64,000 bases of DNA from Acidilutibacter cellobiosedens (lineage in GTDB: Bacteria; Bacillota; Clostridia; Tissierellales; Acidilutibacteraceae): NCBI RefSeq assembly GCF_004103715.1, contig NZ_CP035282.1, positions 1,106,673 through 1,170,672 of the forward strand, in the 5' to 3' direction. A program made the position numbers and the translations under genes. Under the pieces are notes generated by a model. That model ran no database searches. It saw only the letters and a program-made list of their open reading frames with translations, and had not been told where the DNA came from. Numbering within the stretch: position 1 is the first letter of the stretch; every line of letters begins with the position of its first letter. This document shows, piece by piece, positions 45,269-64,000 of this stretch.

Positions 45269-45321
45269 TAAATATTAAAAAAGGATAATTACAAATAAAC
45301 TAATTTTAAATAAAAATTTTT

Positions 45322-45382: not shown

Positions 45383-45383
45383 G

Positions 45384-45700: not shown

Positions 45701-45835
45701 TTTTACTTGTTTTGAAGAATCTGATTTCAAATTCAAAAAGAGATGGTTGAAAATGTCAAGGTACCTGAATTACTATTGTCATGAAATTTTATGTTAATGA
45801 TTTATAAATAATTACAAATAAAAATTCAATTTCTA

Positions 45836-45864
45836 TTGACAATTTTCATGGAGGAGTATAAAAT
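45836..45864 (+). promoter_or_regulatory. Promoter of the por-abfD catabolic operon
   Basis: TTGACA (45836-45841) with TAAAAT (45859-45864) at 17 bp, or TATAAA two bases earlier. About 90 bp of leader precede porG. An IclR-family gene at the far end of the cluster is the natural candidate regulator. Confidence 0.55.
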
Positions 45865-45959
45865 AAAAATGAAAACAGAAATCACATTGTGGAAACTCAA
45901 AATGTAATGTAGTTTAATGATGTATATAATGATTATTATAAAAAAGGAGGATATGTAAA

Positions 45960-46511: not shown

Positions 46512-46817
46512 ATGTACAAACCAAAGGTAGTCAAGAATTATCAGTTCCCGAGAACAAAAGAAGATATGCCCTTAGGTCCCGGTTCTGCCGCAGGGGTATT
46601 AATTGATGTCAATTCCGGATGGAGAACTTTTAGGCCGGTTATTGACGAGACAAAGTGCAGTATGTGCTATGTATGCTGGGTGGTCTGTCCTGATGGGGTA
46701 ATAGATAAAACCGGCACTAAACTGGAAATAGACTATGACTATTGCAAAGGCTGCGGAATATGTGCTTATGAATGTCCCTCAAAAGCTATTGACATGATAA
46801 AGGAGAGTGAAAAATAA
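46512..46817 (+). CDS. porD: 2-oxoacid:ferredoxin oxidoreductase, delta (ferredoxin) subunit
   Basis: 101 residues with two bacterial ferredoxin motifs: CSMCYVCWVVCP (Cys49, 52, 55, 59) and CKGCGICAYECP (Cys78, 81, 84, 88), each able to hold a 4Fe-4S cluster. It relays electrons from the TPP subunit to free ferredoxin. The ATG directly follows the gamma stop and its own TAA overlaps the alpha ATG, so the three are translated in step. Confidence 0.95.
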   Translation: MYKPKVVKNYQFPRTKEDMPLGPGSAAGVLIDVNSGWRTFRPVIDETKCSMCYVCWVVCPDGVIDKTGTKLEIDYDYCKGCGICAYECPSKAIDMIKESEK

Positions 46818-48900: not shown

Positions 48901-48971
48901 AAAAATAAAAAATTTATTAACAAATTAATGATGGCTATCTATGATTATAAGATAAAGGGAGAGATAAGATT

Positions 48972-50417
48972 ATGAAAACGGGAAATCAATACCGTGAAAG
49001 CCTAAAAAAGTTACACCCTATTATTTATTGTAACGGACGCAGGATAGAGGATGTAGTTGATGATAAGATGACCAAACCCCATGTAAATTCTGCGGCTATG
49101 ACATATGATTTGGCTTTTGAACCGAAGTATGAAGACCTGATGACAGCGACATCCAGTTTAACTGGTAAAAAAATAAACAGGTTTACCCATATTCCACAGA
49201 GCACCGGTGATTTAGTGAAAAAAGTAAAGATGTTAAGGATGATAAGCCAACATACGGGAACCTGTTATCAGAGATGTGTAGGGATGGATGCGTTAAATGC
49301 TACTTTTATAACAACTTATGAAATAGACAGGGATTGCCATACCAATTATCATGAACGCTTTAAAGAATATTATAAGTATGTTCAGCAAAATGATTTAATG
49401 ATAGCGGGTTCCATGACTGATGTTAAGGGAGACAGAAGCAAAAAACCGTCACAACAGGCCGATCCTGATTTGTATGTTCATATTGTAGATAAAAGAAAAG
49501 ACGGAATTGTGGTACGAGGTGCTAAGGCACATCAAACAGGCATGGCTAATTCCCATGAGATGTTGATATTGCCTACAACAAATCTGGGGCCTGAGGATAA
49601 GGATTATGCTGTGGCTTGCGCTATTCCCGTAGATGCCCCCGGAGTTATTCACATATTCGGCCGTCAAACAAATGATCAAAGAAGGTTAGACGGAGACATT
49701 GACTGCGGCAATTCGGAATTTGCCATAGTTGGCGGAGAAACATTAACGATATTAAATGATGTATTTGTTCCGTGGGAACGGGTTTTTATGTGTAACGAAT
49801 ACCCCTATGCCCAGAAATACGTAGAGACCTTTGCTTCCTATCATAGGCAGAATTACGGAGGATGCAAGGTAGGGCTCGCTGATGTAATAATAGGTACGGC
49901 TGCGGCGGTAGCAGACTGTAACGGAGTTTTAAATAAATCCCATATCAAAGACAAACTTGTGGAGATGACGTTTTTGGCCGAAACAATGCATTGCTGTTCA
50001 TTGGCTTGTTCGTCGGAAGGATTCAAGACCCCCGCAGGAAGCTACTATGTTAATACGCTATTTGCTAATGCGGCAAAGCTGAATTGTACGAGAACAATGT
50101 ATGAGATTTCTCGGCTGGCCCATGATATAGCAGGAGGTTTTATTGCAACCCTTCCTTATGAAGCGGATTACAAGTCGAAAGAAGTAGGGCCCTATATAGA
50201 TAAATATCTTGCTGCAAATCCTAAGTATTCCACAGAAGAGAGAATCAGAATGGCACGTCTGCTGGAAAATATGACCGGGGGAACGGCATTGGCCGAATCA
50301 ATGCATGGCGCCGGCTCTCCTCAGGCTATGAGGATAATGATATACAGACAAGCAAATCTGGAACATAAAATGGATATTGCTAAAAAATTAGCTAAAATAG
50401 ACAAGATGGAGGGGTAA
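48972..50417 (+). CDS. abfD: 4-Hydroxybutyryl-CoA dehydratase / vinylacetyl-CoA isomerase
   Basis: 481 residues, very similar throughout to the Clostridium aminobutyricum enzyme. It dehydrates 4-hydroxybutyryl-CoA to crotonyl-CoA by a radical mechanism using FAD and a 4Fe-4S cluster. All cluster ligands are conserved: Cys98 and Cys102 (TGTCYQRC), His291 and Cys298 (YHRQNYGGC), one residue lower than the known Cys99, Cys103, His292 and Cys299. Active-site Tyr295 and Lys299 also match. The ATG follows AGGGAGAG. It sits between the Por genes and the beta-oxidation-like genes, consistent with crotonyl-CoA as the link. A related substrate is possible. Confidence 0.93.
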   Translation: MKTGNQYRESLKKLHPIIYCNGRRIEDVVDDKMTKPHVNSAAMTYDLAFEPKYEDLMTATSSLTGKKINRFTHIPQSTGDLVKKVKMLRMISQHTGTCYQRCVGMDALNATFITTYEIDRDCHTNYHERFKEYYKYVQQNDLMIAGSMTDVKGDRSKKPSQQADPDLYVHIVDKRKDGIVVRGAKAHQTGMANSHEMLILPTTNLGPEDKDYAVACAIPVDAPGVIHIFGRQTNDQRRLDGDIDCGNSEFAIVGGETLTILNDVFVPWERVFMCNEYPYAQKYVETFASYHRQNYGGCKVGLADVIIGTAAAVADCNGVLNKSHIKDKLVEMTFLAETMHCCSLACSSEGFKTPAGSYYVNTLFANAAKLNCTRTMYEISRLAHDIAGGFIATLPYEADYKSKEVGPYIDKYLAANPKYSTEERIRMARLLENMTGGTALAESMHGAGSPQAMRIMIYRQANLEHKMDIAKKLAKIDKMEG

Positions 50418-50425
50418 TTTAACGT

Positions 50426-51610
50426 ATGAATGTACATGAAGCTGTAATTGTAAGCGGATGTAGGTTGCCTGTAGGTAAATTTGGGGGCTCATTAAGCAAT
50501 TTCAATGCACCTGAATTGGGTGCAATAGTAGTGAGGGAAGCACTAAAAAGGGCAAATATCAACGGAAATCAGGTAGACGAAGTTATAATGGGAACCCATT
50601 TTCAGGCCGGTATAAAGGCTAATTCCGCAAGACAATGTGCTATATATGCGGGCCTGCCCGTAGAAGTACCTGCCTGGACACCTAATAAAAACTGCGGTAC
50701 CGGACTTAAGGCCGTACAGTGTGCAGTTCAGGCAATAGGAGTGGGAGACGGAAATATTATTGTTGCCGGCGGCTGTGAAACAATGAGCAGGATTCCTTAT
50801 ATAATTCACAATCACCGATTTGGTGTCAGAATCGGCCACGGAGAGTTATTGGACGGCATGTTATACGATGGTTTGATAGACCCGTTTTGCAATTATCATA
50901 TGGGTGTTACTGCGGAGAATGTGGCAAAAAAATGTGAAATTACGAGAGAAATGCAGGATGAATTTGCTTATAACAGCCACATGAAGGCAGCTAAAGCCAG
51001 AAGAGAAGGGAAATTTAAAAATGAGATTATCCCCGTAGAAGTAAAAAAACATAAACAGACTGTGATTTTTGATCAGGATGAAACGATAAGAGAGGATACA
51101 ACTATTGAGACCTTATCTAAATTGAAACCGGCTTTTAAGGAAAACGGCACGGTGACTGCCGGAAATTCTTCGGGAATAAATGATTGTGCTGCTGCGGTGG
51201 TTGTGATGTCGAAAGAAAAAGCAGAAGAAATGGGGAAAAAACCTATAGCCGTATTTAGAGGATTTTCTTCGGCAGGAGTTGATCCTTCAATAATGGGTTA
51301 TGCTCCGGTGCCGGCAATCAATAAATTACTGAAAAAGACAGGGGTAAGAAAAGAGGACATAGATCTTTTTGAAATAAACGAAGCCTTTGCGGCTCAAGCC
51401 GCAGCGTGTGTCAGGGATCTCGGACTTGACCCGGAAAAAGTAAATGTCAATGGGGGAGCCATAGCTTTAGGTCATCCGGTAGGATGCAGCGGAGCCAGAT
51501 TAGTAGTGACGGTTGTTAATGAAATGATAAGGCGTAATGCTAAATATGCTGTTGTTGCTTTATGTATCGGTGGAGGCCAAGGAATCGCAAGTCTTATAGA
51601 AAGGTGCTGA
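50426..51610 (+). CDS. Acetyl-CoA acetyltransferase (thiolase)
   Basis: 394 residues, family length. The acylated Cys90 lies in [11 protein letters not shown] (usual form NKxCGSG), His in [10 protein letters not shown] and the second Cys in ALCIGGGQG. It cleaves acetoacetyl-CoA with CoA to two acetyl-CoA, or condenses in reverse. The ATG follows GAGGGG. It precedes Hbd and crotonase, giving the full crotonyl-CoA to acetyl-CoA route in one operon. Confidence 0.93.
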
Positions 51611-51619
51611 GATGAAAGT

Positions 51620-52471
51620 ATGACTATTAATAAATTATTTGTTATAGGTTCCGGAACTATGGGTTCGGGTATTGCTCAAACTGCCGTGCAGTCGGGACTT
51701 GAAGTAACAATGAGTGATATTAACGAGACCTTCGTTGAAAGGGGAAGGCAGAATATAGAGAAAAGAATAAACAGATTGGTTGAAAAGGGGAAATTTACGG
51801 CTGAGGAAAGAGATAAAGCATTAAACAGGCTGAAAACGACAGTCGGTATGAAGGAAGCCGAAACAGCCGACGCAGTAATAGAAGCGGCTTCCGAAGATGA
51901 AAAAATTAAGAGCGGGATATTTAAGGAATTGGATGAAATATGTCCTCCTGAAACTATATTTGCAAGCAATACGTCTTCGATTTCTATAACATATTTGGCT
52001 TCGTTTACAAAAAGACCCGATAGGGTTATAGGAATGCATTTCTTTAATCCCGTACCTATAATGAAACTTTTGGAAATAACCATGGGATATGTTACATCGC
52101 AGGAAACTCTTAGTAAAGCTAAAAAAGTTGGAGAAAAAATGGGGAAGGTTTACGTTGTTGCAAAGGATAAAGCCGGCTTTATAGTAAATCGTTTACTTGA
52201 TCCGATGCTTAATGAAGCCGTTTACTTAGTGGATGAAGGAGTTGCAACAGTAGAAGATATAGATAAGGCACTGGTTTACGGATGTAACTATCCCATGGGG
52301 CCTTTGGCATTGACGGACTTAATAGGTCTTGATGTATTGCTGGCTGTAATGGAAACATTTTATAAAGAGTATGGGGATCCCAAATACAGGCCTGCTCCTT
52401 TATTGAGGAAGATGGTCAGAGCGGGTAAACTTGGCAAGAAGACAAAAGAAGGTTTTTATAAATACGAGTAA
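51620..52471 (+). CDS. hbd: 3-Hydroxybutyryl-CoA dehydrogenase
   Basis: 283 residues. The N-terminal NAD(P) site is VIGSGTMGSGIAQ (about 8-20), followed by SNTSSISI, and the catalytic His lies in MHFFNPVPIMKLLEI. The C-terminal dimer domain contains DKAGFIVNRLL and GPLALTDLIGLD. It oxidises 3-hydroxybutyryl-CoA to acetoacetyl-CoA or runs in reverse. It starts 9 bp after the thiolase stop, which places its ribosome site within the thiolase end. Confidence 0.95.
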   Translation: MTINKLFVIGSGTMGSGIAQTAVQSGLEVTMSDINETFVERGRQNIEKRINRLVEKGKFTAEERDKALNRLKTTVGMKEAETADAVIEAASEDEKIKSGIFKELDEICPPETIFASNTSSISITYLASFTKRPDRVIGMHFFNPVPIMKLLEITMGYVTSQETLSKAKKVGEKMGKVYVVAKDKAGFIVNRLLDPMLNEAVYLVDEGVATVEDIDKALVYGCNYPMGPLALTDLIGLDVLLAVMETFYKEYGDPKYRPAPLLRKMVRAGKLGKKTKEGFYKYE

Positions 52472-52495
52472 ATAATCGTAAGAGGGTGTAATTGG

Positions 52496-53278
52496 ATGGG
52501 TTATAAAAATATTATTTTAGACGAAAAAGATGGTATTTTAACAATAACGATAAACCGACCTAAAGTTTTGAACGCACTTAATACTGATACCCTAAATGAA
52601 CTTGAGAATGTGGTAAGAGATATTGAAAGAGATAAAGAAATTATGGTTGTAATAATAACAGGAAGCGGAGAAAAGTCCTTTGTTGCAGGTGCGGACATTG
52701 CAGAAATGAAATCTTTAAATATACATGAAGGGCGAAATATGACAAGATTAGGTCAGTGCGTATTTCAAGAAATTGAAAATCTCAGCAGACCTGTAATTGC
52801 GGCCGTAAACGGTTATGCATTGGGGGGAGGCTGTGAACTGGCAATGGCGTGTGATATTCGTATTGCCTCTGAAAAAGCCAAATTCGGGCAGCCGGAAGTA
52901 GGACTTGGTATAATTCCCGGATATGGAGGAACCCAGAGGCTTCCGAGGCTGATAGGCAAAGGCCGTGCTAAATATTATATTTTTACCACAGATATGATAA
53001 CGGCAGAGGAAGCATTTAATATGGGGTTGATCGATAAGGTAGTACCTCACGGAAAACTTTATGAAGAGACATTAAAAATTGCCGAGAAGATAATATCTAA
53101 GGGACCTATAGCTGTGAGGATGGCTAAATATGCTGTTAATAACGGAATGAATATGGATTTGGCTTCCGGGATTGCTTATGAAGCCGAAGCCTATACCACT
53201 TCATTTGGTTCCGAGGACCGCATAGAAGGTATGAGTGCATTTTTGGAGAAAAGAAAAGCCGACTTTAAAGATGAATAA
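52496..53278 (+). CDS. crt: Enoyl-CoA hydratase (crotonase)
   Basis: 260 residues of the crotonase fold. The oxyanion-hole segments are VAGADIAEM (about 63-71) and YALGGGCELA. The two catalytic Glu are Glu114 (GGCELA) and Glu134 (GQPEVGLG), so it should be a true hydratase rather than an isomerase. It converts crotonyl-CoA, the product of the dehydratase encoded upstream, to 3-hydroxybutyryl-CoA. The ATG follows GAGGGTG. Confidence 0.93.
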   Translation: MGYKNIILDEKDGILTITINRPKVLNALNTDTLNELENVVRDIERDKEIMVVIITGSGEKSFVAGADIAEMKSLNIHEGRNMTRLGQCVFQEIENLSRPVIAAVNGYALGGGCELAMACDIRIASEKAKFGQPEVGLGIIPGYGGTQRLPRLIGKGRAKYYIFTTDMITAEEAFNMGLIDKVVPHGKLYEETLKIAEKIISKGPIAVRMAKYAVNNGMNMDLASGIAYEAEAYTTSFGSEDRIEGMSAFLEKRKADFKDE

Positions 53279-53304
53279 AGAAGACTATATGTGGAGGGGA
53301 GAAA

Positions 53305-54300
53305 ATGAGCAAATTTAAAGTTGTTGTTACCGACCATGAATATGAATCTATGGAGATTGAAAGGCAAGAGATGTCAAAAATTGATGTTGATTTTTATGAT
53401 TCCTATCAATGTAAGACGGAAGACGAAGTAATAGATGCAACTAAAGACGCTGACGGTGTTATAGTTCAATATGCGAAGATAACGCCGCGGGTTATCGATC
53501 ACTTAAAGAAATGTAAAGTTATTTCAACATATAGTATCGGTGTTGACAAAATAGATATAAAATCGGCTACCGCAAAGAATATATGCGTTGCCAATGTTCC
53601 CGATTATTGTGTTGATGAGGTATCAGACCATGCTGTACTTCTGATGTTGGCTATTGCCAGAAAACTTACGCTGCTTAACGGAAAAGTAAAATCAGGGGTT
53701 TGGGATTATAAAGTTTCAAAGCCAATCTATAGAATAAAGGGGAAGAAACTTGGGCTTATAGGTTTTGGAAAAATACCTAAACTGGTCGCTAAAAAGGCCC
53801 AGAGTTTTGGAATGAAGGTCTATGCTTATGATCCCTACATTACGGCAGAAGAGATGTCAAAATATGACGTAAGCAGAATGGAATTTGACGATATTATTCA
53901 AACAGTTGATTTTGTTTCTATACATGTCCCCTTGCTGCCGTCTACAAAAGAAATGTTTAACGAGGCGGCATTCAAAAAGATGAAAAAGACGTCATATCTG
54001 ATAAATGCGGCGAGAGGTCCGGTTGTTGACGAAAAGGCATTGATTGAAGCATTGCAGAATAAAGAAATTGCAGGGGCGGCCCTTGATGTGGTATATAAAG
54101 AACCCATATCTAAAGATAATCTTCTGGTGAAAATGGATAATGTAATTATTACACCCCATGTGGCTTGGTATTCGGAAGAATCGGCAGAGGCTCTTCAAAG
54201 GACAACCGCTCAGCAGGTAGTTCAGGTGTTGGAGGGATATTATCCTAAAAATCTTGTAAATAGAGAGTTAAAAGGGAAGTTAAATTTAAAAGAAAGATAA
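53305..54300 (+). CDS. D-2-hydroxyacid dehydrogenase (CtBP-like branch)
   Basis: 331 residues. NAD motif GLIGFGKIP (residues 150-158; the usual third Gly is Pro158), then Asp176 as the ribose-binding acid. Catalytic Arg237 (NAARGPVVDE), Glu266 (YKEPIS) and His285 (TPHVAWYS) are all present, so the enzyme should be active. It interconverts a D-2-hydroxy acid and a 2-oxo acid. In this operon it could make the 2-oxo acid that Por uses. The ATG follows GTGGAGGGGAG. The actual acid is unknown. Confidence 0.85.
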   Translation: MSKFKVVVTDHEYESMEIERQEMSKIDVDFYDSYQCKTEDEVIDATKDADGVIVQYAKITPRVIDHLKKCKVISTYSIGVDKIDIKSATAKNICVANVPDYCVDEVSDHAVLLMLAIARKLTLLNGKVKSGVWDYKVSKPIYRIKGKKLGLIGFGKIPKLVAKKAQSFGMKVYAYDPYITAEEMSKYDVSRMEFDDIIQTVDFVSIHVPLLPSTKEMFNEAAFKKMKKTSYLINAARGPVVDEKALIEALQNKEIAGAALDVVYKEPISKDNLLVKMDNVIITPHVAWYSEESAEALQRTTAQQVVQVLEGYYPKNLVNRELKGKLNLKER

Positions 54301-54332
54301 AAATTTATATAAAAATAACTTATAGATATGAT

Positions 54333-54418
54333 GAACCGATATCAGCCGAACAATTCACAGATAATTCCCCTATTTTTAAATATTGTGTGAGATTTGAGCT
54401 TTACGCCGATATCGGTTC
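54333..54418 (+). promoter_or_regulatory. Long-range stem in the intercistronic gap
   Basis: GAACCGATATC (54333-54343) pairs with GATATCGGTTC (54408-54418) across a 64-base loop that holds a smaller TCACA/TGTGA pair. It lies in the 177-bp gap before the acyl-CoA dehydrogenase gene. It may set processing, attenuation or a separate transcript. No clear T run follows. Confidence 0.4.
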
Positions 54419-54477
54419 TTATATAATATTTCAAATGAAATTTGATAATTTTATGTATAACAAGGAGGTAATTTATA

Positions 54478-55629
54478 ATGCAGTTTTTTCAGTTTACTCG
54501 AGAACAGGAAATGCTTAGAAAAGCTGTACGTGAATTTGCTGAAGCTGAAATAGCCCCTAAAGCGGCTGAGTGGGATGAAAAAGATTATTGCCCCATAGAA
54601 CTTTTTCCGAAGATGGGTGAGATGGGAATAACAGGAGTTTTTGTTCCCGAGGAGTATGGCGGAGCCGGATTGGGCCATGTGGAAAGGGCAATATGCTTAG
54701 AGGAGATATCAAAATATTCAGCGGGACTTGGAATTGCTTTAATGACTCATCATTTAGGATTGTCTTCAATTTTATATTTCGGAACTGAAGAACAAAAGAA
54801 GAAATATCTGCCCGAGTTGGCGGCAGGAACAAAGATTGCCGGTTTGGCTGTGACAGAGCCGGGTGGAGGCTCCGATCTAATGGGAATTAAATCCAAGGCG
54901 GAAGAAAAAGACGGCAAATGGGTAATCAACGGACGAAAATGTTTCATAACCAATTCCCATATAGCCGATTACAATGTGTTGGTAGTAAGCATAGGAAAAG
55001 ATCAAAAAGGGCATAACTTGATGGCAGCATTTATAATAAAAAAAGGTACTCCCGGATATACTCCCGGCAGAAAAGAAAATAAATTTGGTTTGCGTGGCTC
55101 TGTAACAGGAGATATTAACTGTGTAAACGTAACTGTCGGATCTGAGGCAATGCTGGGAGGTTCTGGAGACGGAATTAAAATTGCCATGAAGAGTATAGGA
55201 GAAGTAGGACGTGCAGGTATGGCCGCAATCGGCGTCGGAATTTTGCGCGGATGTTTGGAAGAGGCAGTTAAATTTGCTAATGAACGTATCATATACGGAA
55301 AACCTCTGTCGAAAATCCAATCGATTCAGTTTAATATAGCCGAAACAAGGCTTGAATATGAATCAGCAAGATTATTGCTTTATCATGCCGCAAGTATGAA
55401 AGATGAAAACCTTCCTTGCACAACGGAGTTCGGAATGGCAAAATGGTATGCAACGGAGGCTGCGGTTAATGCTTCCAAACGTACAATGGATCTTATGGGG
55501 GGCTATGGTGTAATAAATGAATATCCTGTAGGACGTTTTTTAAGAGATGCACAGGCTGCTATTCCTTCCGGTGGTACAACGGATATTCAGAAAATTATTA
55601 TTGGAAGAGATACAATAAACAAAAATTAA
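54478..55629 (+). CDS. Acyl-CoA dehydrogenase family protein lacking the usual catalytic Glu
   Basis: 383 residues with the full acyl-CoA dehydrogenase fold (AVTEPGGGSDLMGI flavin/substrate region near 124, KCFITNS near 154, RDAQ near 356). Where butyryl-CoA dehydrogenases have IYEGTSEIQ with the catalytic Glu, this protein has AIPSGGTTDIQ (361-371), so Gly365 takes that place. Glu242 (GEVGR), near the position used by isovaleryl-CoA dehydrogenase, might substitute. Next to EtfB and EtfA it most likely reduces or oxidises a C4 acyl-CoA or a pathway-specific thioester. The ATG follows CAAGGAGG. Confidence 0.85.
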   Translation: MQFFQFTREQEMLRKAVREFAEAEIAPKAAEWDEKDYCPIELFPKMGEMGITGVFVPEEYGGAGLGHVERAICLEEISKYSAGLGIALMTHHLGLSSILYFGTEEQKKKYLPELAAGTKIAGLAVTEPGGGSDLMGIKSKAEEKDGKWVINGRKCFITNSHIADYNVLVVSIGKDQKGHNLMAAFIIKKGTPGYTPGRKENKFGLRGSVTGDINCVNVTVGSEAMLGGSGDGIKIAMKSIGEVGRAGMAAIGVGILRGCLEEAVKFANERIIYGKPLSKIQSIQFNIAETRLEYESARLLLYHAASMKDENLPCTTEFGMAKWYATEAAVNASKRTMDLMGGYGVINEYPVGRFLRDAQAAIPSGGTTDIQKIIIGRDTINKN

Positions 55630-55668
55630 AACATGTGTTTTTATGTATAGAAAAGGGGGTGAAGTTAA

Positions 55669-56475
55669 TTGAGTTACAATATTGCTGTTTGTATAAAACC
55701 GGTGCCCGACCCTGATTTTTATGACAAGATAACCATAGATCCAAGGACAAAAAGGATAACCCGCAGCGGTATACCGGCTGTCATTAATCCGGCAGACAAA
55801 AATGCGGTAGAAGCCGCTTTAGAAATTAAAGAAAAATACGGAGGAAAGGTGACGGTAATAACAATGGCGCCGCCTAACGCCGAAGAAAATATGAGAGAGG
55901 TTCTGGCCATGGGAGCGGACGCGGCTTATATTTTAAGTGATCGTGAGTTTGGAGGAGCAGATACACTGGCAACCTCCTATACTTTGGCCCAAGGGTTAAA
56001 AAAAATAGGCCCATTTGACATAATCATTACCGGTACGGAAAGTGCCGACGGAGCAACAACCCAAGTTCCTGCCCAATTAGCTCAATGGCTTGAAATCCCG
56101 CATCTGTGGGGAGTGAAAAAAATAGAATTTATAAATGAAACAGAACTTAAGGTTAGAGCAAAAATCGAAGGCGGGTCTATAGAGTATTTCATAAAACTGC
56201 CGGCTTTATTAGCTGTATCCCGTGAGATTAACAGACCGAGGTATACAACGATTATGGGCATAAAGGGAGCTAAAAAGAAACCGTTGACAATATATGGGGT
56301 AAAGGATATTGACATAGATTTAAATAATATAGGCCTGAAAGGGTCTCCTACACAGGCAGGAGCAGTGAATGTTCCCTCTATCGACAGGAAATGTAAAAAA
56401 TTAAGGGGCGAACCGGATGAAATAGCGGATTTACTTATAAGAGAATTAACGGCAGCCGGTATACCTCTTGAATAA
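55669..56475 (+). CDS. etfB: Electron transfer flavoprotein, beta subunit
   Basis: 268 residues. The N-terminal VCIKPVPDP and the GADTLATSYTLA and GTESADGATTQVPAQLAQWL segments (nucleotide-binding) are family typical. With EtfA it carries electrons between the acyl-CoA dehydrogenase and another partner. In anaerobes such pairs can bifurcate electrons to ferredoxin, which is not proven here. TTG 55669 is the start, behind AAGGGGGTGAAG. Confidence 0.93.
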   Translation: MSYNIAVCIKPVPDPDFYDKITIDPRTKRITRSGIPAVINPADKNAVEAALEIKEKYGGKVTVITMAPPNAEENMREVLAMGADAAYILSDREFGGADTLATSYTLAQGLKKIGPFDIIITGTESADGATTQVPAQLAQWLEIPHLWGVKKIEFINETELKVRAKIEGGSIEYFIKLPALLAVSREINRPRYTTIMGIKGAKKKPLTIYGVKDIDIDLNNIGLKGSPTQAGAVNVPSIDRKCKKLRGEPDEIADLLIRELTAAGIPLE

Positions 56476-56518
56476 ATTGTAAGAAGATATATTGGTGAAC
56501 AGAGGAAGGGAAAGAAGA

Positions 56519-57538
56519 ATGAATATAGATGAATGGAAAGGCGTTTGGGTTTTAGCGGAACAAAGGTCAGGGCGGATAGATTCAGTCAGCTTTGAGTTAA
56601 TACAAAAAGCCAAAGAATTAAAAATGCAGTTAAAATCATCTGAGCCTGTAACTGCAGTAATTATCGGAAATGGCATTGAAAAATTAACTGAGGAATTGGG
56701 AGAATATGGAGCGGAGGAAGTTATAGTTATAGATGACCCTGCACTGGAAATGTTTAATAATGAAATTTATAGCCTGATTTTAACTGATTTAATAAAGAAA
56801 AGAAAACCTGAGATACTTCTTATAGGAGCTACCATATCGGGACAGGATATTGCTTCAATGTTGGGAGTTAGGCTGGGAACAGGTGTTGCAACCCATTCTG
56901 TAGGCTTACATATTGATGAGGACAACAACCTTGTTTCTGCTGTACCTGCCTTTGGCGGTAAGGTCATAGGGGATATCATATGCCCTAAACACAGGCCTCA
57001 AATAGCTACAGTAAAACCGGGAATCTTGGAAAAAGGGCAAAAAATGCAGGGAAATAAATTTAAAACAATCAGATATGACCCGTCAGATATTATTAAGAAA
57101 GATAAAGGATGTATAAAAGCATTGGCAGTTCACAAGAAAGAATATAAGGGCATACCGTTACAGGAAGCTAAAGTCGTGGTGGCCGGCGGGTTCGGCATAG
57201 GTTCAAAGGGAAATTGGAATCTTCTCCGGAAATTAGCCCAACTTTTAGGGGGAACCGTAGGATGCAGCCGGCCTGTCGTTGACGAAGGGTGGATACCGGA
57301 CGACCATTGTATGATAGGGACAAGCGGAAAAACGATTCGTCCTAAGCTGTATATAGGCTTTGGCATATCGGGTTCGACTCATCATGTATGCGGCATGAAG
57401 GATTCCGATGTAATTATAAGCATTAATAAGGATGAGAATGCACCGATCTTTAATGTGTCGGATGTAGGGGTTGTAGGAGATGCTGAAATTATACTTAAAG
57501 ATTTGATTGAGAAAATCGAAAAATTAAAATCAATGTAA
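56519..57538 (+). CDS. etfA: Electron transfer flavoprotein, alpha subunit
   Basis: About 339 residues. The N-terminal domain begins WKGVWVLAEQRSGRI. The C-terminal FAD domain shows AGGFGIGSKGNW, GCSRPVVDEGWIPD, IGTSGKTIRPKLYIGFGISG and INKDENAPIF, all classic ETF-alpha motifs. ATG 56519 follows GAGGAAGGG. A GTG at 56492 is possible. It is directly behind etfB and forms the heterodimer with it. Confidence 0.93.
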   Translation: MNIDEWKGVWVLAEQRSGRIDSVSFELIQKAKELKMQLKSSEPVTAVIIGNGIEKLTEELGEYGAEEVIVIDDPALEMFNNEIYSLILTDLIKKRKPEILLIGATISGQDIASMLGVRLGTGVATHSVGLHIDEDNNLVSAVPAFGGKVIGDIICPKHRPQIATVKPGILEKGQKMQGNKFKTIRYDPSDIIKKDKGCIKALAVHKKEYKGIPLQEAKVVVAGGFGIGSKGNWNLLRKLAQLLGGTVGCSRPVVDEGWIPDDHCMIGTSGKTIRPKLYIGFGISGSTHHVCGMKDSDVIISINKDENAPIFNVSDVGVVGDAEIILKDLIEKIEKLKSM

Positions 57539-57591
57539 ATAATCTTTCAACGTAAAAATCGGTTTGAAGATGTATGGGAGAAATGTATATC

Positions 57592-57885
57592 ATGTTGAAA
57601 GTCGGAGTTAAATTTTGCGGAAGTTGCAATCCTTATATTGACATGGGATATATATATAAAAATATTCAAGGAATATTGGGTGTTCAATATGTAAGCTGGG
57701 AGAGCAAAAATTATGATGTTCTTCTGATAATCAGCGGTTGTCCTAAAAATTGCATTACAAAACCTGATTTTAAGGGCCCTGCGATTATCGTGGCAGGTAA
57801 TTTTATTGATATGGTTCCGGTATCCGATGAAAAATTAGTCGAGGTCTTAAGGGAAAAAATAGAAAGGCTATCCCTTATGAGGTAG
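57592..57885 (+). CDS. Small protein with CGSCNP and GCPKNC motifs
   Basis: About 97 residues. Cys9 and Cys12 lie in FCGSCNPYIDMG, and Cys50 and Cys54 in IISGCPKNC, which could bind a metal, a cluster or act in thiol chemistry. No enzymatic domain was recognised, though small proteins starting with a CGxCNP motif recur in anaerobe genomes. ATG 57592 is used (GGGAG upstream). ATG 57574 is possible. It sits between etfA and the transporter in the catabolic operon, so a maturation or electron-carrier role is conceivable. Confidence 0.65.
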   Translation: MLKVGVKFCGSCNPYIDMGYIYKNIQGILGVQYVSWESKNYDVLLIISGCPKNCITKPDFKGPAIIVAGNFIDMVPVSDEKLVEVLREKIERLSLMR

Positions 57886-57892
57886 CCTTTTG
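57863..57892 (+). terminator. Weak terminator-like hairpin overlapping a stop codon
   Basis: AAAGGCTA (57863-57870) pairs with TAGCCTTT (57883-57890), with an inner CC/GG, followed by TTTT. The TAG stop of the small Cys protein is in the right arm. It probably reduces transcription into the transporter gene rather than ending the operon. Confidence 0.5.
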
Positions 57893-57970
57893 AGAATAGA
57901 AAGGAGGAAAAGGTTACAATCGGCTTGATTTTGTCAAAAAAACAAAAAATTAAATTGGGAGGGAAAAATT

Positions 57971-59371
57971 TTGGAGGGTATAAAAAGAAAAAGGTTAACT
58001 TCAGAGGGACTTGAAGTTGGAGAACTGCCGGATATTGAAAGCGATACCAAGACATTGCTTAAAAAGATCGGACCGGGATTGGTTTGGTCTGCCGCTGCCA
58101 TAGGTACGGGAGAATTAATATTGATTACGAGAAATTCCGCCATGTACGGTCTTAGGTTTGCATGGATGATAGTATTTTTAATATTTATAAAATTCTTTAT
58201 AAACTATGAAGTCGGACGATATACTGTTTTAACGGGGCAGCCAATCATGGGCGGAATAGCAAAGGCATCGAAGATTTTGGTTTTCTGGTTTGCATTTTTA
58301 CCTATTGCATGGCAGGTAATTACTATTTCCACTTATTGCGTAAATTGCGCCACTTTGCTGCAATGGATTTTTGGCGGAAGGGGAAGCTTAGCATTTATGG
58401 CGACAATAATTGCACTTTTAACCGGACTGATATTATATTTTGGCAGATATGATACACTGGAGAAATTCTGTACAATCGGTACGTCATTTATGACTTTATG
58501 TATATTAATTTCGGCAATTGTTTTTACACCGGGGAAAGGATATGGAGAATTGTTTTTAAACATAATCATGCCTAAATTGCCGCAGAATCCCCAAGCGTGG
58601 ACTGATATGATGTCTCTCACCGGATTTGTGGGAGCCGGTTGTGTAGGTACTATATGGTACAGCTATTGGCTTAAAGAAAAAGGATATGGGTTTGGTTTAA
58701 ATAATAATAAAAAAGATGAAAAGGGTATTGATGTGGCGGTAATTCCGGGAGAGACGCCGGAAGAAGTTAGAAAAGGCAAAGGGTGGATGAAAATGTTACG
58801 CCTTGATTTAGGAATCGGGACAATTTTGACTTTAGTTGTCTGTTTAAGTTTTTTCCTATGCGGCTATGCAATATTACAACCTCGAGGCTTGGTGCCGGAA
58901 GGATTAAAGGTGGTACTTGTTCAGGCCCAGATAATGGTACAGCTAATAGGTCCCATTGGCGAATGGATATATGTAATAGTAGCTATTGAAGTAATGTTTG
59001 CTACTTATTTGGCATTCCAAGACGGAACCTCCAGAATGTGGGACGATGCAAGCAGAATACTTGTTCCAAAGCTTACTACTAAATATGACAAGCGTAAGAC
59101 TTATAGATTTTGGGTAACGATATTTACAATACAATGCCTGATTTCTTTGATAGTTACTTTAAAAGATGCCCAGCCTTTGCTCCTGCTACAGGCACAGTCA
59201 ATATTAGACGGCGCTTATAATTTGCCGATATTGTCCGTAGTCGTATTAATAGTTAACCTCAAAATACTGCCGAAAATTTATAAACCTACAAAGTGGTGTG
59301 TATTTTGGAATATAGTAGGCATCGTTTTCTTTAGTATTTTTGCAATATTCTATACAACTACTTTGGTATAA
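57971..59371 (+). CDS. Nramp-fold transporter without metal-binding motifs
   Basis: 466 residues with about 11 membrane segments. The first helix begins GPGLVWSAAAIGTGEL. True Nramp metal transporters have DPGN at the AIGTGE position and an MPH motif in helix six, where this protein has VGAGCVGTIWYSYW. It therefore belongs to the Nramp-related part of the APC superfamily but should not carry divalent metals by the known mechanism. The operon context suggests uptake of the organic substrate (inference). TTG 57971 is the start, behind GGGAGGG. Confidence 0.8.
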   Translation: MEGIKRKRLTSEGLEVGELPDIESDTKTLLKKIGPGLVWSAAAIGTGELILITRNSAMYGLRFAWMIVFLIFIKFFINYEVGRYTVLTGQPIMGGIAKASKILVFWFAFLPIAWQVITISTYCVNCATLLQWIFGGRGSLAFMATIIALLTGLILYFGRYDTLEKFCTIGTSFMTLCILISAIVFTPGKGYGELFLNIIMPKLPQNPQAWTDMMSLTGFVGAGCVGTIWYSYWLKEKGYGFGLNNNKKDEKGIDVAVIPGETPEEVRKGKGWMKMLRLDLGIGTILTLVVCLSFFLCGYAILQPRGLVPEGLKVVLVQAQIMVQLIGPIGEWIYVIVAIEVMFATYLAFQDGTSRMWDDASRILVPKLTTKYDKRKTYRFWVTIFTIQCLISLIVTLKDAQPLLLLQAQSILDGAYNLPILSVVVLIVNLKILPKIYKPTKWCVFWNIVGIVFFSIFAIFYTTTLV

Positions 59372-59385
59372 CTGCTTTTATAACA

Positions 59386-59423
59386 ACAGGATAACTCACT
59401 AATATAAAAAGGAGTTATCCTGT
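59386..59423 (+). terminator. Intercistronic hairpin
   Basis: A perfect 12-bp stem ACAGGATAACTC (59386-59397)/GAGTTATCCTGT (59412-59423) after the transporter gene. Only a weak T tract follows, so it may be partial termination or an mRNA stabiliser. Confidence 0.55.
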
Positions 59424-59461
59424 AACTGTTTTATTAAGTTTATAAAGGGGGTAACTTTGAC

Positions 59462-59878
59462 TTGAAAAAATATATCGGTAGTATTATTATGCTGTTTTTT
59501 TCATTAGGTATTTTTGCTTTGGCGTTGATAATCTCTATGAGAAATAATAATTTTATGATTTTGAAGCGAGAAGGGTTTTTCCATAGGGTATTTCTTGCCT
59601 GTATTTTAACTATTGTTGCTGGTTTGTTCTTTGATTTATTATTAAAATTAAGAAAAACAAGAAGAACTTTTCTTAAAACATCCATGTTATATTGGGGATT
59701 TGTAGCTTTATTAAGCAGAATTCAAATTATTATAGGTATGAATTACAGTTTTTCATTATCATTTTTATTCTCAATGGCAGTAGGGTTAATTGTGATTTTT
59801 GGATTAGGCAGCGTGTTCGGATTCTTTTTTTATCGCATATATATGTCAGTATATAAGAAATTAAGCAAGTCACAATAA
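59462..59878 (+). CDS. Small four-helix membrane protein
   Basis: 138 residues with four probable membrane helices (about 4-26, 42-62, 72-92 and 100-128) and a basic loop RKTRRTFLK between the second and third. The TTG start at 59462 follows GGGGGTAACTTTGAC. No family was recognised. Placement between the transporter and the racemase-like gene suggests an accessory role in transport, but there is no direct evidence. Confidence 0.6.
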   Translation: MKKYIGSIIMLFFSLGIFALALIISMRNNNFMILKREGFFHRVFLACILTIVAGLFFDLLLKLRKTRRTFLKTSMLYWGFVALLSRIQIIIGMNYSFSLSFLFSMAVGLIVIFGLGSVFGFFFYRIYMSVYKKLSKSQ

Positions 59879-59922
59879 TAATTTTGTGAGGTATATAAAA
59901 ATTGAATCGAAGGTGGTAAATA

Positions 59923-61233
59923 ATGAATAGATTAGATTTTAAAATTGATTTTCCATCGATTATAAAAATGTCCGACTCCGTATTTATTCCTAAGATGTAT
60001 AAAGTACGTCAGAATTTCGATACTTTAAAACTTTCAAATTTTATTGAGAAGTTAAAAGGCGAGTTAACAAATAAAAAAGATATAATGGAATCTCTAAATG
60101 GCAAAAAAGTATGCATAGCCCTCGGAAGCCGTGGTATCAATAATATATCCTCTATAGCCACTCAAATAGTAAAGGAGGTAAAACAATACGGCGGTGAACC
60201 ATTTATAATCCCTGCAATGGGAAGCCACGGAGGTGCGACTCCCGAAGGACAGAAGGAATTGTTGGAGGGATACGGTATCACCGAAGATAAAGTAGGAGCT
60301 CCTATTATATCAAACCTTGATGTGGAATTTTTAGGGAAGACAGACGAAGATATTCCGGTATTTACAAGTAAGGATGCCCTCAATGCCGATGGGGTTATAC
60401 TTGTAAATCGTGTTAAACCTCATACGGCATTTCACGGAGATATAGAAAGCGGTTTAATAAAGATGTCTGTTATAGGAATGGGGAAACAAAAGGGGGCAGA
60501 ATTGTGCCATAAAATGGGATTTAATAACTTTTCCGAGAAATTAAAGAATATGTCAAGGATTGTATTCTCCCATGTACCTGTAGTTCTCGGAGTGGCAATT
60601 TTGGAAAATGCATATGATGAAACAGCGGATATAAGGGCTTTAGCCCCGTCGGAATTCTTCACTGAAGAACCAAAACTTTTAAAAACTGCCAAGTCATTAA
60701 TGCCCCAAATTTTATTAAATAATCCGGACATCCTTATAGTGGACGAACTGGGAAAGGACATCAGCGGAGACGGGATGGACCCTAATATTACGGGAAGATT
60801 TGCGTCGGATTATGTAAAAAGTGATTTTAAAGTAAACCGGATCGTGGTGTTGGGGCTTACGAAGGCTACGGATGGAAATGCAAACGGTATAGGAGTAGCC
60901 GATATTACTACTTCAAGAGTGCTGAAGGATACGGACTTTACAAAAGGCTATATCAATTCGATTACTGCAGCTATCCCCAGTACTGTACGCTTGCCTATGG
61001 TTATGCCTAATGATTATGAAGCTATAAAAACGGCAATAAAGACAGCTAACAATTTGGATTATGACGGCAGAAAATCACGTATAGTACGTATTAAAAATAC
61101 TTTGAGCCTGAAAAACATATATGTCTCCGAATCGCTTATTGAAGATGTAAAGAAGAATTCAAAGCTTGAGATCATATCGGGGCCTTTTGATTTTGAGTTT
61201 GATAAAGAAAATAATCTGATAACAGGCTGGTAG
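59923..61233 (+). CDS. LarA-type (DUF2088) nickel-pincer racemase homologue
   Basis: 436 residues. LarA racemases use a nickel pincer nucleotide covalently held by a Lys. Here Lys180 and His196 are 16 apart, the same spacing as LarA Lys184/His200. His167/His171 and His102 (GSHGGATPEGQ) are candidates for the other catalytic and ligand His. It probably epimerises a 2-hydroxy acid, possibly feeding the D-2-hydroxyacid dehydrogenase of the same operon. No larB, larC or larE homologue is in the window. The ATG follows GAAGGTGG. Confidence 0.82.
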   Translation: MNRLDFKIDFPSIIKMSDSVFIPKMYKVRQNFDTLKLSNFIEKLKGELTNKKDIMESLNGKKVCIALGSRGINNISSIATQIVKEVKQYGGEPFIIPAMGSHGGATPEGQKELLEGYGITEDKVGAPIISNLDVEFLGKTDEDIPVFTSKDALNADGVILVNRVKPHTAFHGDIESGLIKMSVIGMGKQKGAELCHKMGFNNFSEKLKNMSRIVFSHVPVVLGVAILENAYDETADIRALAPSEFFTEEPKLLKTAKSLMPQILLNNPDILIVDELGKDISGDGMDPNITGRFASDYVKSDFKVNRIVVLGLTKATDGNANGIGVADITTSRVLKDTDFTKGYINSITAAIPSTVRLPMVMPNDYEAIKTAIKTANNLDYDGRKSRIVRIKNTLSLKNIYVSESLIEDVKKNSKLEIISGPFDFEFDKENNLITGW

Positions 61234-61269
61234 ATATTAACGATTAAATGAGAAAGGAGAGAAAGTAAA

Positions 61270-62028
61270 ATGAATTTATTTGACTTGACGGGTAAGGTGG
61301 CAGTGGTAACAGGAGGAAGTTCAGGGAATGGGCAGAGTATTGCATATGGTCTTGCACAGGCAGGGGCGGATGTGGCGGTAGTCGGCAATACAAGCCCCTT
61401 AGACAAGACAAAGAAGCTAATTGAAAGTACCGGAAGAAGATGTTTACCGATAAAAACTGATTTAAGAGATATACATGAAGCAAAAACTAAGATTATTGAT
61501 TCCACTATGAAGGAATTCGGAAGAATTGATATACTTGTCAATAATGCGGGTATTCAGAGAAGAAATCCGGTTATGGTTTTTACGGAAAAAGATTGGGATG
61601 ATGTTTTGGCCGTGAATTTGAAGTCCGTTTTTATTTTGAGCCAAGGAGTAGCTCCTATAATGCAGAAGAATGGATGGGGGAAAATTATAAATATGGCTTC
61701 CATGTTGTCTTTTCAGGGAGGTTTAAATGTCCCAGCTTATGCTGCCAGCAAAGGAGGAATAGCCCAACTTACCAAAGCTATGGCAAATGAATGGTCAAAA
61801 TATGGAATTAATGTAAACGCCATGGCCCCGGGATATATAGTCACTAAGATGAATACCGCCCTAATATCCGATAAAGAACGTAGCAGACAAATATTAGAAA
61901 GAATTCCAGCCGGACGCTGGGGAGAACCGACGGATCTGATTGGAGGAGCTATATTCCTTTCATCCCATGCTTCTGATTATGTAGATGGACATGTACTATG
62001 TATTGACGGAGGATGGATGGGGAGGTAA
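61270..62028 (+). CDS. SDR family oxidoreductase (KduD/gluconate 5-dehydrogenase-like)
   Basis: 252 residues of classical SDR type. Cofactor motif TGGSSGNG (14-21), NNAG (91-94), catalytic Ser144, Tyr157 and Lys161 (YAASK). The closest general resemblance is to 2-deoxy-D-gluconate/gluconate dehydrogenases that oxidise a secondary alcohol on a sugar or hydroxy acid. It is the last gene of the operon before a strong terminator. The ATG follows AAAGGAGAG. Confidence 0.85.
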   Translation: MNLFDLTGKVAVVTGGSSGNGQSIAYGLAQAGADVAVVGNTSPLDKTKKLIESTGRRCLPIKTDLRDIHEAKTKIIDSTMKEFGRIDILVNNAGIQRRNPVMVFTEKDWDDVLAVNLKSVFILSQGVAPIMQKNGWGKIINMASMLSFQGGLNVPAYAASKGGIAQLTKAMANEWSKYGINVNAMAPGYIVTKMNTALISDKERSRQILERIPAGRWGEPTDLIGGAIFLSSHASDYVDGHVLCIDGGWMGR

Positions 62029-62063
62029 TATTTATATAAAATTAATATTGAGAAGTTAGCTGT

Positions 62064-62108
62064 TTATTTGGACGTATTTTCCAAAATACGTCCAAATAAT
62101 TTTTTTGA
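62064..62108 (+). terminator. Terminator at the end of the catabolic operon
   Basis: A perfect 17-bp stem TTATTTGGACGTATTTT (62064-62080)/complement (62083-62099), two-base loop, then eight T. Confidence 0.92.
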
Positions 62109-62260
62109 CTAAGTATATAAATTCCCTGTATTTACAGTAAAACTGTTTATAATGCTTGACAACAGGGTATTACATGAATATGATTTATTTATAATAAGGA
62201 TATTAAAAATTACAATTTGGTTTTATTTAAACAGTATTATTTTGAAGAGGAGAGAAATCT

Positions 62261-63058
62261 ATGCAAAATGGAGAACCTGAAAGAAAAAATAAGTTTTTTG
62301 TGCAATCTTTACATAGGACATTTGAAATAATCGACATAATCAGTGAAGCGGAGGGAAAAGGTGTCAACGTTACAGAGATAAGCAAAAAAATTAAACTACC
62401 CATAAGTACGGTTTATAGATTGTTACAAAACTTAATAGAAGGGGGCTATGTAGAAGAAATAGACGGTTGTAACTATATTCTCGGACTGAAATTTTTAGAA
62501 TTAGGGGTAAAAGTTCAAAAAAATATTGATATACGTAATGTTGCACGGGACTTTCTTGAAAAGCTTAATGAAGAAACGAAAGAAACCATATATGTTGCAA
62601 AGTTTGACTCTAAACAGTTAAATATAATTTATATTGAAAAAATACAAAGCAAGAGAAATATAACATTAACTGCAGGGATAGGTTCGAGAAACTATGTTCA
62701 TTCTACCGCTAATGGGAAATGTCTTCTGTCCGGTTTTAGTGATGAAAAGATAATAGAAATTTTGAAAAAAACAGGAATGCCTGCTTTAACTGATTATACC
62801 ATAGTTGATGCGGAACAGTATTTAGAAGAAATAAGAAAGGTACGACAAGATGGATATGCAATTGATGATAGGGAGAATGAAAACGATGTACGTTGTATTT
62901 CTTCCCCGATATTTGATCATGAAAATAAAGTGACGGCAGCAGTAAGTATTTCCGGGGTAATAAATAACATGGATTTAGAGCTTATGCATACAAAATATAG
63001 GGATCTTATAATAGAGACTGCAAGATCTATATCTGAAAAATTAGGATACTGGAAGTAA
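62261..63058 (+). CDS. IclR family transcriptional regulator
   Basis: 265 residues. An N-terminal winged helix (about 15-75, with ISKKIKLPISTVYRLLQNL) is followed by an IclR effector domain (LTAGIGSRNYVHSTANGKC near 145, DRENENDVRCISSPI near 205). IclR proteins sense small organic acids or aromatics and repress or activate catabolic operons. Lying between the catabolic operon and the HMGL-type gene, it is the likely regulator of both. The ATG follows GAAGAGGAGAG. Confidence 0.9.
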   Translation: MQNGEPERKNKFFVQSLHRTFEIIDIISEAEGKGVNVTEISKKIKLPISTVYRLLQNLIEGGYVEEIDGCNYILGLKFLELGVKVQKNIDIRNVARDFLEKLNEETKETIYVAKFDSKQLNIIYIEKIQSKRNITLTAGIGSRNYVHSTANGKCLLSGFSDEKIIEILKKTGMPALTDYTIVDAEQYLEEIRKVRQDGYAIDDRENENDVRCISSPIFDHENKVTAAVSISGVINNMDLELMHTKYRDLIIETARSISEKLGYWK

Positions 63059-63080
63059 TAAACAGACTTTAATAAATACG

Positions 63081-63141
63081 ATAGCAAACAAAAATGCAAG
63101 TTTTTATATAAAAACTTGCATTTTTGTTTGCTATTTTTTTA
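63081..63141 (+). terminator. Terminator: 54-bp perfect palindrome
   Basis: 63081-63134 is a perfect palindrome with 27-bp arms (core AAAATGCAAGTTTTTAT and complement), followed by T residues. It lies directly after the IclR gene. Confidence 0.85.
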
Positions 63142-63414
63142 TATACGTGTTAAAATATATTTTATAATTTCAATAATATACATATCCAATATATAATATA
63201 TGTAAGAATAAAATAATAATTAGATATGCGGCATTCTGTAAAATGAATATATTGGTTATCCATATTGCATTAATTGAGATATAAGAAAAGCTTCTATAGG
63301 AATATTATAAGGTAGTTTTTCTTGAAGCTCATTTACGGAAAGTTCTTTTTAATCAATATTTTATAAGTGAGAACTTTCCTATTCGTTATAAAAATATAAT
63401 CGGGAGGGATTAAC
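63142..63414 (+). promoter_or_regulatory. Leader region of the HMGL-type gene with a hairpin
   Basis: An AT-rich gap. GGAAAGTTCT (63337-63346) pairs with AGAACTTTCC (63370-63379) across 23 bases, about 36 bp before the start codon. No confident promoter hexamers were picked out, and no known riboswitch was recognised. Confidence 0.4.
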
Positions 63415-64000
63415 GTGTATAATCCAGTAGATGTACTAAAGCCAAATCTTTATAAGAGTATATTTCCTTATTCGGAAATTCCAAAGGTTGTTTTTAATAA
63501 TATTCAACTGCCTATGGAATTGCCGGAGAACATATGGATTACGGATACTACTTTTAGAGATGGGCAGCAGTCTATGTCTTTTATGACGGTGAAACAGATA
63601 GTCAAGATTTATGATTATCTGCATGAATTAGATAACGGTTCAGGGGTTATATGCCAATCCGAGTTTTTTCTGTATTCCGATAAGGATAGAAAAGCTGTAG
63701 AGAAATGCAGAGAAAGAGGATATGAATTTCCACAGATAACATCCTGGATTAGAGCAGATAAGAGGGATTTTAAGTTAGTAAAGGATATGAAAATTAAAGA
63801 AACGGGAATATTGATGTCCTGTTCGGATTATCATATATTTCACAAATTGAATATGACGAGAAAACAAGCCATGAACAAATATCTTTCCATTGCGGAAAGC
63901 GCATTGGAATATGGCATAATTCCGAGATGCCATCTGGAAGATATAACAAGAGCAGACTTTTTTGGGTTTGTCGTTCCACTGGTCAAAAATCTGATGGGAC
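63415..64000 (+). CDS. HMGL-type (isopropylmalate synthase/HMG-CoA lyase fold) enzyme, partial
   Basis: The first 195 codons of a gene cut by the window edge. GTG 63415 follows CGGGAGGGATTAAC. TDTTFRDGQQS near residues 43-53 is the metal- and substrate-binding motif of the HMGL-like TIM barrels, which include 2-isopropylmalate and homocitrate synthases, HMG-CoA lyase and 4-hydroxy-2-oxovalerate aldolase. RCHLEDITRADFFG near 175 continues the barrel. It is placed next to a catabolic operon and its regulator, so a carbon-carbon lyase role is possible. The missing C-terminus is needed to tell synthase from lyase. Confidence 0.8.
   Translation, partial: MYNPVDVLKPNLYKSIFPYSEIPKVVFNNIQLPMELPENIWITDTTFRDGQQSMSFMTVKQIVKIYDYLHELDNGSGVICQSEFFLYSDKDRKAVEKCRERGYEFPQITSWIRADKRDFKLVKDMKIKETGILMSCSDYHIFHKLNMTRKQAMNKYLSIAESALEYGIIPRCHLEDITRADFFGFVVPLVKNLMG

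Follow-up and report, generated by a model that had tools for sequence, protein, structure and literature searches.

What does a protein of the Nramp family carry when it lacks the DPGN and MPH motifs of canonical Nramps and is encoded within a catabolic operon? The question is raised by a gene of Acidilutibacter cellobiosedens at 57971–59371, plus strand, of a 64,000-nucleotide stretch of contig NZ_CP035282.1 that was analysed as a whole (positions 1,106,673 to 1,170,672; hereafter the window). The gene starts with TTG and encodes 466 amino acids (hereafter the carrier). An initial annotation, made from the letters alone, had read it as an Nramp-fold transporter that lost both motifs and that probably takes up the organic acid degraded by its gene cluster rather than a divalent metal. 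Judged by its sequence, the carrier belongs to the secondary carriers of the Nramp-related group and falls outside the canonical Nramps, which transport metals, and comparative gene context suggests that it probably imports the hydroxy-carboxylic acid degraded by the operon; the substrate idea of the initial annotation proved better supported than its evolutionary story.

Membership in the Nramp-related superfamily was given by profile searches: NCBIfam NF037982 (Nramp_1) matched the carrier at 138 bits (cut-off 50) in an alignment covering its length, and Pfam Nramp (PF01566) reached 29.1 bits against a cut-off of 29.8, or 31.3 bits in a six-frame search. A phmmer search of the PDB with the single carrier protein gave no match at E ≤ 1, and a profile of 13 carrier relatives reached Nramp structures there (best 5e-22). 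The family name given initially was upheld by profiles, on which the Nramp fold is a putative assignment; a single-sequence AlphaFold model (no alignment of relatives) had a predicted local distance difference test score (pLDDT) of 41 and a predicted template modelling score of 0.25. Alignment with DraNramp placed G45-T46-G47-E48 (codons at 58103–58114), the helix-1 G(S/T)GE signature, at the DPGN positions and V225-G226-T227 (58643–58651) where helix 6 of canonical Nramps has MPH; both segments are on the plus strand, and the letters first noted are correct. Where the two motifs have D, N, M and H, the carrier has G, E, V and T, E48 standing at the Asn position of canonical Nramps. The DraNramp E134 column holds Tyr, whereas the E164 and D279 columns, like the NF037982 alignment, are shared with canonical Nramp/MntH (SLC11) proteins. 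A sequencing accident is unlikely, because the 64%-identical relative in locus L005 has the same helix-1 motif (AIGTGELI) and a nearly matching helix 6 (VGAGCIGTIW in L005, VGAGCVGTIW in the carrier).

The placement in a family tree that had been proposed at the outset was run with 87 rows, consisting of 85 carriers (profile searches had yielded 86, of which a 227-amino-acid piece was excluded) and fragments of DraNramp and EleNRMT. The regions sampled comprised 60 picked by hand, 15 from closer relatives and 13 of 23 plasmid records; L035, L047, L048, L049, L107 and L109 have no tree row and were read separately, and L138 yielded no carrier. The 36 canonical rows formed one clade (support 100/100), as did the 13 NRMT rows (100/100), and the carrier lay outside both; eight YcsG-type rows fell, weakly grouped (70/23), on the canonical and NRMT side. 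The carrier was found across a branch of 100/99 support, among 28 rows of which 22 were of the G-x-G-E type and six had other motifs. These 22 did not make one clean clade, two long-branched L124 rows being interspersed, and their single origin appeared in 11% of bootstrap trees; nearest to the carrier was L005, the next rows (L038, L025 and L024 in turn) being far removed. All 26 G-x-G-E-type carriers, a class defined by its motif, have Glu fourth, and 22 read G(S/T)G (L047, reading G-A-S-H, was excluded from these counts); the canonical rows, again by definition, have Asp first and Asn fourth in 36 of 36. The tree is unrooted and by itself silent on the direction of change. In the relevant part of a published analysis rooted with neurotransmitter:sodium symporter (NSS) carriers, Nramp-related proteins lacking DPGN and MPH are paraphyletic to the canonical Nramps (PMC12873925), and because of this paraphyly and of the carrier's position outside the canonical clade, the claim that its motifs were lost is unsupported. 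Proteins of this kind are already in print, mostly as uncharacterised Nramp-related outgroups; the functional reading given here is new.

Relatives of the carrier were found in one other genome among 249 of the order at E ≤ 1e-30 (G168, 64% identity), in one other among 391 of the class at 1e-15 and in 16 others among 398 of the phylum at 1e-8, the three samples having genomes in common; searches of genome contigs and of viral contigs for relatives found none. G168, which contains L005 and belongs to another family of the same order, has around its carrier a small membrane protein, a group-22 isomerase, a short-chain dehydrogenase/reductase (SDR), 4-hydroxybutyryl-coenzyme A (CoA) dehydratase, acyl-CoA dehydrogenase, electron transfer flavoprotein (Etf) subunits, hydratase, thiolase and dehydrogenase, in a gene order that differs from that of the window. 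A set kept through rearrangement is the best local evidence that the carrier and these enzymes work together. The G168 locus also has a sigma-54 activator, and the stretches read there showed neither an IclR match nor a gene of the POR type. About 14 kb past that carrier, L143 22–4227 (contig C34) encodes two 2-hydroxyacyl-CoA dehydratase (HGD-D) proteins, an activase and a protein of the acetyl-CoA hydrolase/transferase type, the dehydratase and transferase scoring below the cut-offs of named NCBIfam equivalogs.

The genes beside G-x-G-E carriers and those beside canonical Nramps were compared by Pfam on up to 3 + 3 neighbours, using 20 carriers of the first type other than the window and L005 (112 of 116 neighbours; two repeats, a second Rubrobacter carrier and one L040 open reading frame were excluded) and 20 canonical carriers drawn randomly from 35 (115 proteins). 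The G-x-G-E neighbours included Lar_N (4), ILVD_EDD (3), GD_AH (3), SSF (3), PdxA (2), FGGY (2), LUD (2), Diacid_rec (2) and DUF1537-type SBD_N (2), whereas the canonical neighbours included Fe_dep_repress (7), MFS (4) and E1-E2 ATPase (3); the special families of each set were absent from the other among the 25 families listed for each, families with a single member falling mostly outside those 25. Among rows that share kinship, with the G-x-G-E rows collected by likeness to the window protein and two of them from one Rubrobacter locus, with D-2-hydroxyacid dehydrogenase as a broad marker and with two Streptomyces rows scoring partly by markers drawn from one of them, at least one acid-catabolism marker lay within 8 kb of 16 of 26 G-x-G-E carriers (window and L005 included), 2 of 36 canonical carriers and 2 of 13 NRMTs, and at least two markers within 8 kb of 10 of 26, 0 of 36 and 0 of 13, respectively. 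Fisher's test of G-x-G-E against canonical rows before regions were added gave p = 3e-4 (8/24 vs 0/35) and p = 1e-5 (14/24 vs 2/35). An earlier marker table was circular, its marker proteins having come partly from the loci under test; the 8-kb markers came from other loci, except DUF1537, PdxA, HpcH (L048), PxpA/B/C (L036) and the lactate-permease query (L030). Flanks were shorter than 8 kb on a side in 12 of 22 G-x-G-E and 8 of 35 canonical regions, and the count is therefore biased against the G-x-G-E rows. By comparison, PxpB/PxpC lay within 8 kb of seven of the eight YcsG-type carriers.

Individual loci give examples. Streptomyces plasmids carry a G-x-G-E carrier gene with a four-carbon acid sugar kinase, PdxA, an aldolase and a dehydrogenase; the Rubrobacter locus has UxaA, SDR, mandelate-racemase-type and lactate-racemase-domain genes; and the Haladaptatus locus has three UxaA genes and a LUD gene. 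In L035 and L107, G-S-G-E-W carriers stand between GlcD-like and GlcF-like genes, an arrangement that suggests a lactate/glycolate subclade.

A second line of evidence came from the isomerase gene near the carrier, at 59923–61233 (plus strand), a LarA-like, nickel-pincer-type isomerase of group 22 (NF052515, 525 bits, cut-off 400). Isomerases of this group exceeded the cut-off in 82 of the 398 genomes of the phylum, and 20 of their neighbourhoods in other genomes (12–19.6 kb each) were read. None of the 20 contained an Nramp-family carrier and 13 contained an organic-acid carrier (DctM in 11, TctA in one, L-lactate permease in one), while the membrane proteins tested in the remaining seven were TrkH, EamA, AI-2E, MFS, an ABC permease and two oxaloacetate decarboxylase beta subunits. 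Conversely, five G-x-G-E loci have a group-22 gene (the window, L005, L026, L028 and L034), and no DctM, TctA or lactate permease was found within 8 kb in any of these five. Judging from this swap of carrier types among group-22 loci, the Nramp-related protein seems to take the position that known organic-acid carriers have elsewhere.

H102 and H167 of the window isomerase lie in a LarA-like sequence context and were matched to the catalytic pair by reading. No LarB, LarC or LarE was above cut-off in the window genome (one contig, 98% complete), where LarE scored 34.8 of the 150 required, LarB 34.5 of 175 and LarC had no match. LarB and LarE exceeded their cut-offs in G168, G766, G803 and G698, and LarC, sought in the window genome and G168 only, was found in G168. 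The window genome thus appears to encode the isomerase and not the pathway that makes its cofactor.

The operon position claimed for the carrier was borne out: gaps of 85 and 90 bases separate it from its two neighbours on the same strand, and no intergenic gap exceeds 177 bases across the same-strand run 45960–62028, which may be transcribed as a single operon. All genes of the run are on the plus strand. It begins with four genes for a 2-oxoacid:ferredoxin oxidoreductase of the POR/VOR type (45960–48900), namely gamma (45960–46511), a ferredoxin-like gene assigned by reading (46512–46817), alpha (46817–48013) and beta (48004–48900). The next gene (48972–50417) has HpaB domains, matches PDB entries 1u8v (576 bits) and 6vjr (503 bits), and is predicted to encode 4-hydroxybutyryl-CoA dehydratase/vinylacetyl-CoA isomerase; its C98, C102, H291 and C298 presumably represent the C/C/H/C pattern of cluster ligands. 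Pfam and NCBIfam matches identify thiolase (50426–51610), 3-hydroxyacyl-CoA dehydrogenase (51620–52471), enoyl-CoA hydratase (52496–53278), acyl-CoA dehydrogenase (54478–55629) and the Etf subunits (55669–56475 and 56492–57538); a D-isomer 2-hydroxyacid dehydrogenase (53305–54300), below the cut-off of every named NCBIfam equivalog, lies among them. The last gene before the carrier encodes a 103-amino-acid cysteine-containing protein with no Pfam or NCBIfam match (57574–57885). Downstream of the carrier are a small membrane protein (59462–59878), the isomerase and an SDR oxidoreductase resembling KduD/2-deoxy-D-gluconate 3-dehydrogenase (61270–62028; 338.2 bits, KduD cut-off 338.85). A terminator-like hairpin at 62064–62099 (plus strand; consensus match only) probably marks the end of the operon, and it is followed by a promoter-like site (consensus match only) and an IclR-type regulator gene (62261–63058, plus strand; closest in NCBIfam to KdgR, at a score under the cut-off of that family).

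Several features lie further from the carrier. A very long A+T-rich inverted repeat (63084–63131, 20 counted pairs) comes after the IclR gene, and an Rfam scan of 44000–64000 gave no regulatory RNA at the gathering score. Just beyond the window, L003 10088–17887 contains an HMGL-like synthase, an isocitrate/isopropylmalate dehydrogenase and further genes that resemble, by reading, aconitase and pyruvate carboxylase. Elsewhere in the window are an HGD-D-type protein and, after it, a fusion of an activase with part of an HGD-D protein (together 7498–10433), and three near-identical 484-amino-acid transposase genes (13493–14947, 19162–20616 and 29004–30458), two of them identical in translation and the first with a DDE domain.

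If the carrier imports the acid, a route through the operon can be proposed. The protein would work as a LeuT-type carrier and hold the substrate carboxylate with the main-chain amides of G45-T46-G47, the unwound stretch of helix 1, as G(S/T)G in helix 1 is described to recognise the substrate carboxyl of Asc1-type carriers in the docking and simulation work of PMC10998858; we infer that the register of the motif is the same in both. The conserved Glu48 could be a proton-coupling or hydroxyl-binding site, and substrate choice may be set by the helix-6 segment, a part that differs from one subclade to another. The group-22 isomerase would epimerise or racemise the imported acid at C2, and the SDR, the D-2-hydroxyacid dehydrogenase or both would oxidise it to a 2-oxoacid, which the POR-type enzyme would convert by CoA-forming oxidative decarboxylation to an acyl-CoA (4-hydroxybutyryl-CoA), leading via crotonyl-CoA to acetyl-CoA and butyryl-CoA. 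Speculatively, 2,5-dihydroxypentanoate would fit this enzyme set, and G168 could, equally speculatively, reach 4-hydroxybutyryl-CoA by way of 2-hydroxyacyl-CoA dehydratase instead.

The small membrane protein directly downstream of the carrier (138 amino acids, about three hydrophobic segments, no Pfam family) has a 38%-identical counterpart at the matching place in L005 and is possibly a partner subunit of the carrier. Membrane proteins of 135–155 amino acids adjoin the carrier in six loci (window 59462–59878, L005 8492–8899, L006 6167–6628, L028 7000–7422, L031 10499–10924 and L034 10972–11439) and may be analogues of the small TRAP subunit. A homologous family of partner subunits was rejected, as the set of L006, L028, L031 and L034 does not align with that of the window and L005 (hhalign probability 0.6%).

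Among known systems, canonical Nramps have the DPGN, MPH and E134 that the carrier lacks and form the clade from which it is excluded. The NRMT Mg2+ transporters (EleNRMT) are, like the carrier, Nramp-related, with a non-canonical site and Arg at position 83; they differ in their DAGG/DASG-type and xPW motifs and separate clade, and the carrier has no motif of the DxxG type. PxpT/YcsG (MntG, "G-motif 3") likewise stands outside canonical Nramps, has a glycine motif at the DPGN place and sits in a catabolic operon. The YcsG-type rows, so named for their PxpABC neighbours, differ in reading GPGT (seven) or GTGT (one) with VVPYNL and in lying across the 100/99 branch; the carrier has neither GPGT nor VVPYNL, and no PxpA, PxpB or PxpC is encoded within 8 kb of it. 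PxpT, 50% identical to YcsG, is reported as needed for growth on 5-oxoproline, the defect being restored by plasmid-borne pxpT, which is genetic evidence for 5-oxoproline uptake, and the pertinent section of that article does not exclude metal transport (PMC13274462). The amino-acid carriers Asc1 and LAT1 of the APC superfamily share with the carrier the helix-1 G(S/T)G, in an inferred register (PMC10998858, in the part concerned with this motif). MumT of Acinetobacter baumannii, an Nramp-family protein of low identity that is encoded in a catabolic operon and reported as a Mn importer, is likened here by description, not by sequence (PMC5050338, as far as its relevant passages go). YcsG and PxpT belong to branches other than that of the window carrier, and the MumT sequence is unplaced in the tree.

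These systems bear directly on an alternative that we consider unlikely, namely that the carrier imports a divalent metal (Mn2+, Mg2+ or Fe2+) for the enzymes of the operon, as has been argued for MumT next to urea carboxylase. Several observations weigh against acid import, some of them by favouring a metal. According to the passages concerned, YcsG raises cell Mn and is a reported Mn importer whose 5-oxoproline effect is possibly polar (PMC10448178), a mumT mutant has lower cell Mn, restored in trans, with mumT located in a urea operon (PMC5050338), and an NRMT carries both Mg2+ and Mn2+ (PMC8806188). The absence of DPGN and MPH, offered initially as an argument for a non-metal solute, is real and yet does not by itself exclude metals. 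E48 is a conserved acid at a metal-ligand position and could bind a cation, the carrier is the sole Nramp-family match of its genome, and its GTG register was placed from sequence, without a structure. The Roseomonas marmotae plasmid carrier (L040 333–7317, G-S-G-E) comes directly after siderophore-type genes (non-ribosomal peptide synthetase, 2,3-dihydroxybenzoate dehydrogenase and isochorismatase), and one subclade possibly has a metal or siderophore link. Ten of the 26 G-x-G-E-type carriers have no acid marker within 8 kb, among them those of Deinococcus deserti (L038), Skermanella rosea, Aureimonas and Microscilla; an arabinonolactone oxidase is found 1.4 kb on from the D. deserti carrier. 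L024 and L025 have only a sugar-diacid-regulator-like gene (Diacid_rec; L024 6668–7918 and L025 13052–14317) and no marker, and in L028 the malonate carrier MadLM (MadL/MadM) is 6.4 kb from the Nramp-related one. Against a metal stand the residues G, E, V and T of the carrier in place of D, N, M and H, the absence of Fe_dep_repress from the 25 families listed for G-x-G-E neighbours, compared with seven around canonical carriers, and the organic-acid carriers that accompany the enzymes in other group-22 loci.

A narrower form, import of Ni2+ to supply the isomerase next door with its nickel-pincer cofactor, would explain why a group-22 gene is nearby in the window, L005, L026, L028 and L034; it is highly improbable, as the marker search found no such isomerase in the acid operons L006, L031, L044, L048 and L049, no LarB, LarC or LarE passes the cut-off in the window genome and none of the 20 other group-22 loci has such a carrier. 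It is also quite improbable, if less so, that the protein exports or exchanges a fermentation product (butyrate, acetate) or carries an amino acid, 5-oxoproline or another small molecule: the CoA-linked, fermentation-type enzymes of the operon and the 5-oxoproline link of YcsG/PxpT speak for it, but no PxpA, PxpB or PxpC gene lies within 8 kb of the carrier, and the marker genes of its relatives, where present, serve acid breakdown. Import of the operon's own acid, the solute proposed at the outset, agrees better with the neighbourhoods of relatives, the carrier types of group-22 loci and the PxpT/YcsG genetics.

Among the papers listed by full-text searches of the literature (at most 20 per search), none beyond the 5-oxoproline papers dealt with an Nramp-family carrier of hydroxy- or sugar acids; PMC12445098 was rejected, as its Nramp passage concerns mouse genotypes. 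A broader reading, which we hold only tentatively and think less likely than not, is that the large G-(S/T)-G-E branch consists of hydroxy- and sugar-acid carriers that use the carboxylate loop of amino-acid carriers, often with a small partner, and that metal Nramps are derived. If so, metal transport by Nramps would be a derived state of an organic-anion carrier, and the cargo of the ancestors of metal Nramps, a question raised by the paraphyletic outgroup described in part of PMC12873925, would become assayable, the neighbourhoods pointing to candidate substrates for some subclades. The name "Nramp family divalent metal transporter", given to all 23 plasmid matches and used for NF037982, would mislead if the G-x-G-E branch carries organic acids, and the missing uptake step for the degradation of tetronates, hexonates and hydroxyacids would have been found.

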